Below are positions 2,483-11,388 of a DNA stretch of 64,000 nucleotides, piece after piece. The stretch comes from an archaeon GW2011_AR18 (lineage in GTDB: Archaea; Nanobdellota; Nanobdellia; SCGC-AAA011-G17; GW2011-AR18), in the NCBI GenBank assembly GCA_000806155.1, contig JWKX01000007.1:1-64000 (forward strand), in the 5' to 3' direction. The position numbers and the translations under genes were made by a program. Each line of letters starts with the position of its first letter. Position 1 is the first letter of the stretch. Under the pieces are notes generated by a model that did not search any database, was not told the DNA's origin, and was given only the letters and a program-made list of their open reading frames with translations.

Positions 2483-2608
2483 ATGAAAATATTTATTGAA
2501 AGGACTAACGAGCATAAGGAAGTTAAGGAAGCATCTACTGTTAAGGAATTATTGAAGATTCTTGATATTAATCCTAAATTTATTTATGCTTTAATAAAAT
2601 ATGGCTAA
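2483..2608 (+). pseudogene. Truncated ubiquitin-like sulfur carrier (ThiS/MoaD/SAMP-like)
   Basis: MKIFIERTNEHKEVKEASTVKELLKILDINPKFIYALIKYG*; beta-grasp N-terminal half, stops before the expected C-terminal half and Gly-Gly. Confidence 0.5.
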
Positions 2609-3047
2609 TGAAATACCTGATACACTGTCCTCAGTAGATTATGCAACATTAACCGAACAACTTAGGGATATTATATCTAGGCTTGATACAATATATTCTA
2701 GGCTTGATACAATATATAGATTGGGTGGTGATAATCCTGTAATGGATAGGATTGATGCTGGAGTAGATAGGATTGATGCTGGAGTAGATAGGATTGATGC
2801 AAGACTTTTTAATATTGACTCAAGACTTACTGCTATGAGAAACTCTTTAAGAAATAGTGATCGCATATATAGATTGGGTGGTGATAATCCTGTAATGAGT
2901 AGGATTGATGTCGGAGTGGATAGGATTGATGCAGGAGCATCAGGAATTGCTGCAAGACTTTTTAATATTGACTCAAGACTTACTGCTATGAGAAACTCTT
3001 TAAGAAATAGTGATCGCATAAATGGTTATGGTCATTATTGGGATTAG
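2601..3047 (+). CDS. Repeat/coiled-coil protein with heptad RIDAGVD units
   Basis: RIDAGVDRIDAGVDRIDARLFNIDSRLTAMRNSLRNSDRIYRLGGDNPVM repeated at a 153-bp period. Confidence 0.55.
   Translation: MANEIPDTLSSVDYATLTEQLRDIISRLDTIYSRLDTIYRLGGDNPVMDRIDAGVDRIDAGVDRIDARLFNIDSRLTAMRNSLRNSDRIYRLGGDNPVMSRIDVGVDRIDAGASGIAARLFNIDSRLTAMRNSLRNSDRINGYGHYWD
2714..3019 (+). repeat. 153-bp near-identical tandem duplication (2 copies) with nested 21-bp repeats
   Basis: atatagattgggtggtgataatcctgtaatg at 2714 and 2867; gcaagactttttaatattgactc... at 2799 and 2952; offset 153 in both cases. Confidence 0.85.
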
Positions 3048-6199: not shown

Positions 6200-6261
6200 A
6201 TTATAACAGATTTTTACTATTTTATAAAGATTTTTAAAGCTTTAACTTTCTCTATTTGTAT

Positions 6262-6381
6262 GCCCCTGTAGCGCAGCCTGGATTTTATTAAACTAGATAG
6301 CGCGTCAGGTTCCTAACCTGTAGGTCGTGGGAGGTTAAATCATGCGTGGTTTAATCAACGAATTCAAATCCCATCAGGGGC
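6262..6381 (+). tRNA. tRNA-Arg(CCT) with two introns (D-loop 6284-6298, T-arm 6332-6362)
   Basis: GCCCCTG/CAGGGGC acceptor; GCGC D-stem; anticodon loop TTCCTAA; T-arm GTGGG/TTCAAAT/CCCAT restored only after removing 15 and 31 nt. Confidence 0.85.
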
Positions 6382-6772
6382 GTATTGTTGATGCGAATGT
6401 TGTTATTGTTGCACCTAAGAATAATCCGTACATTACACTATCATTTAATTTTAGTAATAATGCAGCTCCTATTGTTAACAGGCAGAATATTACTATTGAT
6501 AGATATTTCCACCCGTCATATGTTCTCTTCTGTTTTTCATAATCCTGCTGTATTTTATTTTGTTCTTGCTGGCATTTGTTTATCTGTTCCTGTGTTGTAT
6601 TATCATATCCATTTACTGGCATAGGCTTTGACATATAACATTCATTGTACATTGGATAATTTGTATAATCATATTTAGGGAAGAATATGTTAGCTCCCAT
6701 GAATACTAATGGTATATATAGAATAATTATTATTGCTGCGAATAATATTATTTTCCAGGTTGTTCCTTTCAT
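6374..6772 (-). CDS. Membrane protein, hypothetical
   Basis: Several TM segments; stop codon overlaps the tRNA-Arg 3' end by 8 nt. Confidence 0.5.
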   Translation of the reverse strand: MKGTTWKIILFAAIIIILYIPLVFMGANIFFPKYDYTNYPMYNECYMSKPMPVNGYDNTTQEQINKCQQEQNKIQQDYEKQKRTYDGWKYLSIVIFCLLTIGAALLLKLNDSVMYGLFLGATITTFASTIRP

Positions 6773-7625: not shown

Positions 7626-8762
7626 TTATCTCTTTTGGTGTTTTTCTTGTAAATATGATTTTCTTAGATTTTTCATTAAGTTTTGTATAAAATATAGATT
7701 ATGTATGCTTCCATATCTCTCTTTTATTGGTTCATGTGTTCTGTACAAGTGATGTAAGAATGCTTTGCTGTAATTTTTACATACAGGACATTTACAGTTT
7801 TCATCTAGTGGTTCCTCTTCATCTCTGTACATTGCTTTTTCTATATTGATCTTTCCTTTACTAGTAAATATTCCTCCATGTCTTGCATTCATTGTTGGAA
7901 ATCTTGAATCAAATGCATCTACTCCTAATTCTACAGATGTTACTATATCTTCCGGGCTTCCAACTCCCATTAAATATCTTGGTTTTTCTTTATCTAAATG
8001 TTTTGTACTGAATTTTATTGTATTATACATTATTTCTCTTCCTTCTCCTATTCCTAATCCTCCTAATGCTATCCCATCGAAGTCTAGTTTATTTATGAAT
8101 TTGCAGCTTTTCTCTCTTAATTCTTTAAAAGTTCCACCCTGGCATATTCCAAATAATAATTGTTTCTTATCACTATGTGATTTTACACAACGTTCTGCCC
8201 ATAAATGTGTTATTCTTGTACATTCCGCAATATATTCCTCATTATTTCCGTAATGTGGTACATAATCTAGTGCCATTGCAACATCTGATCCTATGGCTTT
8301 CTCTATTTCCATTATATCTTCAGGAGTAAAGAATTTTATACTTCCATCATATGGGTTTTTGAAATGTACTCCTTTTTCATCTGCTTTATGTAAGAATGCT
8401 TTGCTTAATATCTGGAATCCTCCTGAATCTGTGAATATTGTCTTATCCCATTTCATGAACCTGTGTATCCCATTAAATTTTTGTAGAATATCTAATCCAG
8501 GTTTTAAGTGTAATACAAATGCATTTGCAATTATTGCCTCTGTTCCTATCTCTTCTAGATCTTTAGGGCTTACAGCTTTTGGAGTTCCTTTTGTTGCTAT
8601 TGGCATGAAGAAAGGAGTTTTTACTATTCCATGTCTTGTTTTTAGTGTTCCTGCTCTTGCCTCTTTATCTTGTGAACTTATCTTGAACATATTATTGAGA
8701 AATATTGCTCTAATTATAAAAGTAATCTTTTTATAAGCATTAAACATAATTAAATTATGCAA
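7626..8762 (-). CDS. tgt: tRNA-guanine transglycosylase, bacterial (queuine)-type
   Basis: TPFFMPIATKGTPKAV, TDSGGFQIL, MGVGSPEDI, FPTMNARHGGIFT, and zinc motif CKCPVC...H. Confidence 0.8.
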   Translation of the reverse strand: MHNLIMFNAYKKITFIIRAIFLNNMFKISSQDKEARAGTLKTRHGIVKTPFFMPIATKGTPKAVSPKDLEEIGTEAIIANAFVLHLKPGLDILQKFNGIHRFMKWDKTIFTDSGGFQILSKAFLHKADEKGVHFKNPYDGSIKFFTPEDIMEIEKAIGSDVAMALDYVPHYGNNEEYIAECTRITHLWAERCVKSHSDKKQLLFGICQGGTFKELREKSCKFINKLDFDGIALGGLGIGEGREIMYNTIKFSTKHLDKEKPRYLMGVGSPEDIVTSVELGVDAFDSRFPTMNARHGGIFTSKGKINIEKAMYRDEEEPLDENCKCPVCKNYSKAFLHHLYRTHEPIKERYGSIHNLYFIQNLMKNLRKSYLQEKHQKR

Positions 8763-10520: not shown

Positions 10521-11291
10521 ATGCTATCAAATGATGAAAGAGAGAATATTATACTGCTATTGAAATTAGGGTATAGTATAAATGAAATAAACAAGATTAC
10601 TCATAAGAGCAAAGGCACAATCTATACTTATTATAAAAAATTATTTGGTAAGAAAATTAAAGATGTATCAATAAATGAAGCAGATGACGAATTTATAGGG
10701 GAATTAGTGGGTTTATTTGTTGGTGATGGTAATGCATATCATAATAAAAAAGAAGGGAAATATATGATAAGATTCTTTTTTAACTGTAATGACTTATCGC
10801 ATAATTCTCAGCTTGTTGAGTTTTTCAGTAAAAATTTTGAAAAAAGTCCTAATATCTACAAAGAAGAGAATGTTTTAATTTTTACTTATATTTCTAAAAA
10901 ACTTTTTAAATTTCTATTAAACTTTGTAGTTTGGGATATTTCTGTTGATATATTGGGAAGAAATAGAAAAAGTAGAACAATATATCTTAAACCTAGAGAT
11001 TATTCTTTAAACTTTAAAATAGGGTTTCTTAGAGGTTTTATGGATAGTGATGGACATATCTCAAATAAAAAGATACAATTCTCATCTGCTTCACAAAGAA
11101 TTATGGACAAAACAATGAGTTTTTTATTGGAATGTGGATTTATAGATATGAATTACTATTTTTATGAAGAAAAGAGAAAAAATAGAGTTGGTATGTACCA
11201 TATTGCACTTAATAAATCAGAAAGAATGAACTTTTTTAGAAGGGTTCAGCCAAGAAATCTTAGAAAATTAAATGCACCAGCCGGGATTTGA
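10521..11291 (+). CDS. LAGLIDADG homing endonuclease, free-standing, N-terminal HTH
   Basis: LVGLFVGDGNAY and GFLRGFMDSDGHIS motifs. Confidence 0.8.
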   Translation: MLSNDERENIILLLKLGYSINEINKITHKSKGTIYTYYKKLFGKKIKDVSINEADDEFIGELVGLFVGDGNAYHNKKEGKYMIRFFFNCNDLSHNSQLVEFFSKNFEKSPNIYKEENVLIFTYISKKLFKFLLNFVVWDISVDILGRNRKSRTIYLKPRDYSLNFKIGFLRGFMDSDGHISNKKIQFSSASQRIMDKTMSFLLECGFIDMNYYFYEEKRKNRVGMYHIALNKSERMNFFRRVQPRNLRKLNAPAGI

Positions 11292-11388
11292 ATATCCGAA
11301 CATTAAGTTTAAACTTAACATCTCCCGGATCAAGAGCTTACCTCTCTATAATGGAAGGCTCTAATGCTAACCATTACACCACTGGTGC
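11274..11388 (-). tRNA. tRNA-Gly(TCC) with two introns (T-arm 11293-11323, anticodon loop 11339-11351)
   Basis: GCACCAG/CTGGTGC acceptor; anticodon stem AGAGC/GCTCT, loop CTTCCA[13 nt]A; CCGGG[31 nt]TTCAAATCCCGG. Confidence 0.85.

Follow-up and report, generated by a model that had tools for sequence, protein, structure and literature searches.

Positions 53/54 and 20/21 are catalogued sites of non-canonical introns in archaeal tRNA genes, and the presence of several introns in one gene is documented (PMC4090602). Specifically, in the Crenarchaeota, tRNA genes of Thermoproteales such as that for Pyrobaculum islandicum tRNA-Pro(UGG) contain several short introns outside position 37/38 that are flanked by bulge-helix-bulge (BHB) or relaxed BHB motifs (PMC4090602). 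Non-canonical tRNA introns have also been documented in the DPANN archaea ARMAN-1, ARMAN-2 and Nanoarchaeum equitans (PMC4033280). The two ARMAN organisms (Micrarchaeota), which have an epsilon-2 EndA, carry multiple and relaxed-BHB tRNA introns (PMC4033280), and N. equitans combines disrupted tRNA genes with an alpha-beta EndA.

Here we describe a tRNA-Arg(CCU) gene in the window, which is the whole 64,000-nt stretch of DNA that was analysed. The host genome comprises 822 kb in 17 contigs and is 90% complete. The tgt gene of the window shares 79% identity with the one in Candidatus Woesearchaeota archaeon RIFCSPLOWO2_01_FULL_28_39 (L045), which identifies the host as a Woesearchaeota-type DPANN archaeon. 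The gene shares its several short introns with those of Thermoproteales and its relaxed BHB with those of ARMAN. In contrast to the Thermoproteales, it belongs to a DPANN lineage; relatives were found to have a single EndA gene, whose product lacks a loop of CSL length, and no beta subunit was seen in them. Their EndA is a single alpha-type protein rather than the three-unit epsilon fusion of ARMAN. Among solved structures, its nearest relative is 3iey_A, the catalytic subunit from N. equitans; unlike the split genes of N. equitans, the genes described here are contiguous and appear from their sequence to be cis-spliced, and a beta subunit was not detected. Because both sites are catalogued, the two-intron gene is of an already documented intron type. 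The lineage-level pattern of BHB tRNA introns in Woesearchaeota may be new: our literature search returned no report of them, though one may exist, and the only paper it returned on tRNA introns of Woesearchaeota concerns a group I intron.

Organization of the tRNA-Arg(CCU) gene

With its two inserts in parentheses, the gene reads GCCCCTG TA GCGC AGCCTGGAT (TTTATTAAACTAGAT) A GCGC G TCAGG TTCCTAA CCTGT AGGTC GTGGG (AGGTTAAATCATGCGTGGTTTAATCAACGAA) TTCAAAT CCCAT CAGGGGC G. Its parts and the gene used as a syntenic anchor are as follows:

6262-6382 (+): tRNA-Arg(CCU) gene, 121 nt
6262-6283 (+): exon 1, with the acceptor 5′ strand, D-stem 5′ strand and D-loop up to U20a (from sequence and acceptor pairing)
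6284-6298 (+): D-loop intron, 15 nt, with central helix CUGG/CUAG; the sole 4/4 rotation that yields the mature sequence
6299-6331 (+): exon 2, with the D-stem 3′ strand, anticodon arm, variable loop and T-stem 5′ strand GTGGG (from sequence)
6312-6314 (+): anticodon CCT, within exon 2
6332-6362 (+): T-arm intron at 53/54, 31 nt, a 10-bp hairpin plus a 6-nt tail; BHB CGUG-GG^A/AACG-AA^U; the ortholog intron is identical at 25/31 positions with pairing kept
6363-6382 (+): exon 3, with T-loop TTCAAAT, T-stem 3′ strand CCCAT, acceptor 3′ strand CAGGGGC and discriminator G73 (from sequence)
7626-8762 (-): tgt, syntenic anchor for orthologs; L045 and L046 likewise have the tRNA gene downstream of tgt and on the other strand

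Excision of both inserts leaves a complete 75-nt cloverleaf with the conserved tRNA bases. The acceptor stem GCCCCTG/CAGGGGC forms 7/7 pairs, the D-stem is GCGC/GCGC, the anticodon loop is TTCCTAA and the T-stem is GTGGG/CCCAT; the anticodon stem carries a T27-T43 mismatch. The T-arm insert falls between G53 and T54. The first-pass annotation had described insertions of 15 nt in the D-loop and 31 nt in the T-arm, with none in the anticodon loop, and all of this can be read from the sequence. It had also predicted a normal mature tRNA of 74 nt. The product is indeed normal but measures 75 nt, since the end given, 6381, left out G73 at 6382.

Several neighbouring features were recorded. A predicted membrane protein of 132 aa (6374-6772, -) has its stop codon in the acceptor 3′ strand of the tRNA, giving a convergent 9-nt overlap. 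The tgt product is a tRNA-guanine transglycosylase of the queuosine type found in bacteria (TIGR00430 at 426.9 bits, against a cut-off of 306.75) and not archaeosine TgtA, although the host is archaeal. Finally, a small ORF at 2601-3047 (+) is made of internal repeats (DRIDAGVDRIDAG..., and RLFNIDSRLTAMRNSLRNSDRI twice).

Predicted splice junctions and in silico recovery of the mature tRNA

A strict BHB has two 3-nt bulges separated by a 4-bp helix and placed at the junctions. For the D-loop intron, CUGG-AU^U/CUAG-AU^A provides 4/4 pairs, one of them G-U, and a weak inner helix; among the rotations giving that mature tRNA, only 6284-6298 scores 3 or more. For the T-arm intron, CGUG-GG^A/AACG-AA^U provides 3/4 pairs and a G.A mismatch, and the intron itself forms a strong 10-bp hairpin. 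These results agree with the earlier description of a BHB-like fit in the D-loop and a relaxed BHB in the T-arm.

The unspliced gene had no match with ARAGORN, and no Rfam match was found within 6200-6450. To search for splice solutions blindly, all BHB-like excisions (at least 3/4 central pairs) in 140 nt around the gene were made and each product was given to ARAGORN. The resulting calls were tRNA-Arg(CCU) in 269 of 288 cases, which bears out the identity first proposed. The pair 6284-6298 and 6332-6362 was among the solutions and, by inspection, is the one that restores canonical D- and T-loops. When 200 dinucleotide shuffles were subjected to the same procedure (~25,000 spliced variants each), none yielded a tRNA no longer than 78 nt, compared with 26 such spliced variants from the real sequence. 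A group I or other self-splicing intron was rejected on the basis of size, as introns of 15 and 31 nt compare with a catalytic core of hundreds of nucleotides, and of the same lack of Rfam matches.

The minimum-energy fold of the pre-tRNA keeps the T-stem paired (-42.3). When structures were drawn by hand, the BHB conformer (-33.8) was 2.7 kcal/mol less stable than the T-stem conformer (-36.5), which suggests that cutting in the T-arm would require local opening of the T-stem. The lower T-stem would open and place G52 and G53 in the 5′ bulge. In general, each splice junction of the pre-tRNA is predicted to fold as a BHB, within whose bulges EndA would cut. RtcB would then ligate the exons into a 75-nt tRNA that reads AGG; transcription, cutting, ligation and charging are all predicted steps.

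Orthologs, recurrence of the 53/54 site and alternative explanations

In the archaeon RIFCSPLOWO2_01_FULL_28_39 (L045), the tRNA gene likewise lies on the other strand downstream of tgt. Its introns measure 45 nt in the D-loop and 31 nt at 53/54, and the gene is identical in sequence to that of a family relative (G002). Five of the six differences between this T-arm intron and that of the window fall in the hairpin helix, where all keep pairing, and one of these is a compensatory double change from C-G to U-A. Furthermore, the T-arm BHB of G002 is imperfect in the same way (3 bp plus G.A). The D-loop introns, of 15 nt in the window and 45 nt in L045, are unrelated in sequence and length. In another family of the order, the gene of G051 has a 20-nt D-loop intron and a 22-nt 53/54 intron with a perfect CGAG/CTCG helix. 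A pattern scan of 103 genomes of the order identified three CCU genes with 53/54 introns (window, G002 and G051). Three orthologs (G003, G032 and G039) have the D-loop intron only, and an archaeal isolate (L046; tgt 72% identical) has a syntenic intronless tRNA gene close to tgt. The occupation of these sites in some orthologs and not in others indicates that introns are gained or lost there, in keeping with the behaviour of BHB introns.

Recurrence of the 53/54 site was examined with candidates in which a T-loop is preceded by AA or TA. The own genome has 15 such places, and from nine family relatives 50 candidate places, those ending in CC, were fetched. The stem-match set consisted of the relatives' 50 places, four own-genome cases and two Arg orthologs. 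In 18 of 19 stem-matched placements, some of which are alternative placements in one gene, three or all four BHB pairs form at precisely 53/54, and the inner helix is mostly 4 bp long; ~15% would be expected at random sites (estimated from pair frequencies, with G-U counted). One case lies in the window:

11273-11388 (-): tRNA-Gly(UCC) gene with an anticodon-loop intron and a T-arm intron; 53/54 site with perfect UCCG/CGGA
11293-11323 (-): T-arm intron of tRNA-Gly(UCC), 31 nt at 53/54, with the same 1+10+4+10+6 architecture as in tRNA-Arg(CCU)

In addition, the own tRNA-Pro(UGG) gene (L065, G000:C15 near 4950, -) has three introns to remove, in the acceptor stem, in the anticodon loop and at 53/54, and further clear 53/54 cases with full acceptor stems occur in G001, G002, G003 and G009. 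Nine of the 17 own-genome tRNA-family matches inspected are longer than 80 nt. Non-canonical tRNA introns turn out to be common in this Woesearchaeota lineage. Separately, tRNA-Ala(UGC) (L009, G000:C12:66564, +) carries its insertion within the T-loop, at about 57/58, another non-canonical site. A structured RNA of ~330 nt (L052, G000:C4 near 27451, +) combines a long terminal helix with a T-arm-like element whose CGTT/GACG BHB is perfect; it had no Rfam match, and blind splicing of it gave no convincing tRNA. It is possibly a multi-intron initiator tRNA-Met, and a locus of G002 (L085) has the acceptor AGCGGGG with the same BHB.

These observations, coupled with the architecture of the gene, very strongly favour a functional, single-copy tRNA-Arg(CCU) gene whose D-loop intron (after U20a) and 53/54 intron, both non-canonical and of the BHB type, would be cut out by EndA and the exons joined by RtcB. 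The first-pass annotation had named a second intact CCU gene, together with absence of mature transcripts from this locus, as the observation that would count against it; no second gene was found in the own 822-kb genome by family, pattern and protein searches. AGG codons are common (126 AGG and 324 AGA in 14,739 codons). A decaying pseudogene with chance insertions would leave AGG to be read through wobble by tRNA-Arg(UCU), which is present elsewhere in the own genome (L010), and the mismatch in the anticodon stem also speaks for this reading. This is nevertheless very unlikely, because the acceptor, D and T stems are intact, the insertions are at exact BHB positions, the length and pairing of the T-arm intron are kept in a diverged syntenic ortholog, and the CCU gene is the only one found.

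It is less likely still that the inserts are expansion segments, never removed, of an oversized tRNA or tRNA-like RNA. The T-arm hairpin, which is kept in the minimum-energy fold, can stack on the T-stem, but a 25-nt D-loop and a 38-nt T-loop would abolish the elbow contacts, BHB pairs lie at the exact junctions, and orthologs without introns exist. The T-arms of tRNAs are common integration targets, so scars of a mobile element that integrated into the tRNA 3′ half might also be considered. This is the least likely explanation of all and is contradicted by the BHB pattern: no element or duplicated 3′ end occurs in the sequence read around the gene, and the same 53/54 site with a BHB is used in several different tRNAs by inserts that are short and hairpin-forming.

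The splicing machinery and implications for the lineage

Removal of the two introns from tRNA-Arg(CCU) would call on EndA and RtcB. RtcB is present in the own genome (E 4e-167). EndA (PF01974) was detected, as one copy each, in 19 of the 21 genomes that were searched, all 19 being among the 20 relatives, and was not found in the own assembly, which is 90% complete. In relatives, endA adjoins a conserved gene and RNase Z. Neither of these neighbours was found in the own assembly by protein searches run without a positive control. Their common absence points to a missing stretch of assembly rather than to loss of EndA alone, and the absence of endA is probably an assembly gap; for the same reason, and with the same searches, true loss of EndA was judged unlikely. 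The endA-neighbour gene (L034, L037, L040 and L041) has open frames of ~295-376 aa; the L040 copy has no Pfam match, and RNase Z is adjacent in L037 and L040.

The EndA of relatives is encoded by open frames of 177-247 aa, and its closest solved structure, 3iey_A (E 1e-33 and 2e-36), is followed by the M. jannaschii enzyme. Broad-specificity EndA is recognized by a long lysine-bearing loop (11 residues for ASL; 15-18 residues for CSL) together with a beta unit. When set beside the A. pernix enzyme, the loop in relatives is short (e.g. YGEPQDSKKFHYSL), often with a lysine, and has no CSL-length insertion. Furthermore, no beta subunit or second EndA was detected, each genome giving a single PF01974 match even when E values up to 10 were admitted. 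These enzymes thus appear to lack the features of broad-specificity (alpha-beta)2 or epsilon-2 EndA with a CSL or ASL loop; the lineage may be an exception, or a beta subunit may have escaped detection.

We consider it possible, though rather doubtful, that in this clade many non-canonical introns, relaxed-BHB ones among them, are removed by a single alpha-only EndA that has no CSL/ASL-type loop, and that the recurrent 53/54 introns represent a lineage-specific spread like that in Thermoproteales. If this were true, the proposed rule that non-canonical and relaxed introns are supported solely by (alpha-beta)2 or epsilon-2 enzymes bearing loops of this type would need revision. As the tRNA-Arg(CCU) gene is invisible to the standard annotators ARAGORN and Rfam, genomes of this kind will appear to have incomplete sets of tRNAs. 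Since related genomes hold this gene with both introns, with one or with none, the gain and loss of introns can be followed at fixed tRNA sites. Recurrent 53/54 introns alongside a single alpha-type EndA likewise allow the proposed co-evolution between EndA type and the diversity of introns to be tested in DPANN archaea.
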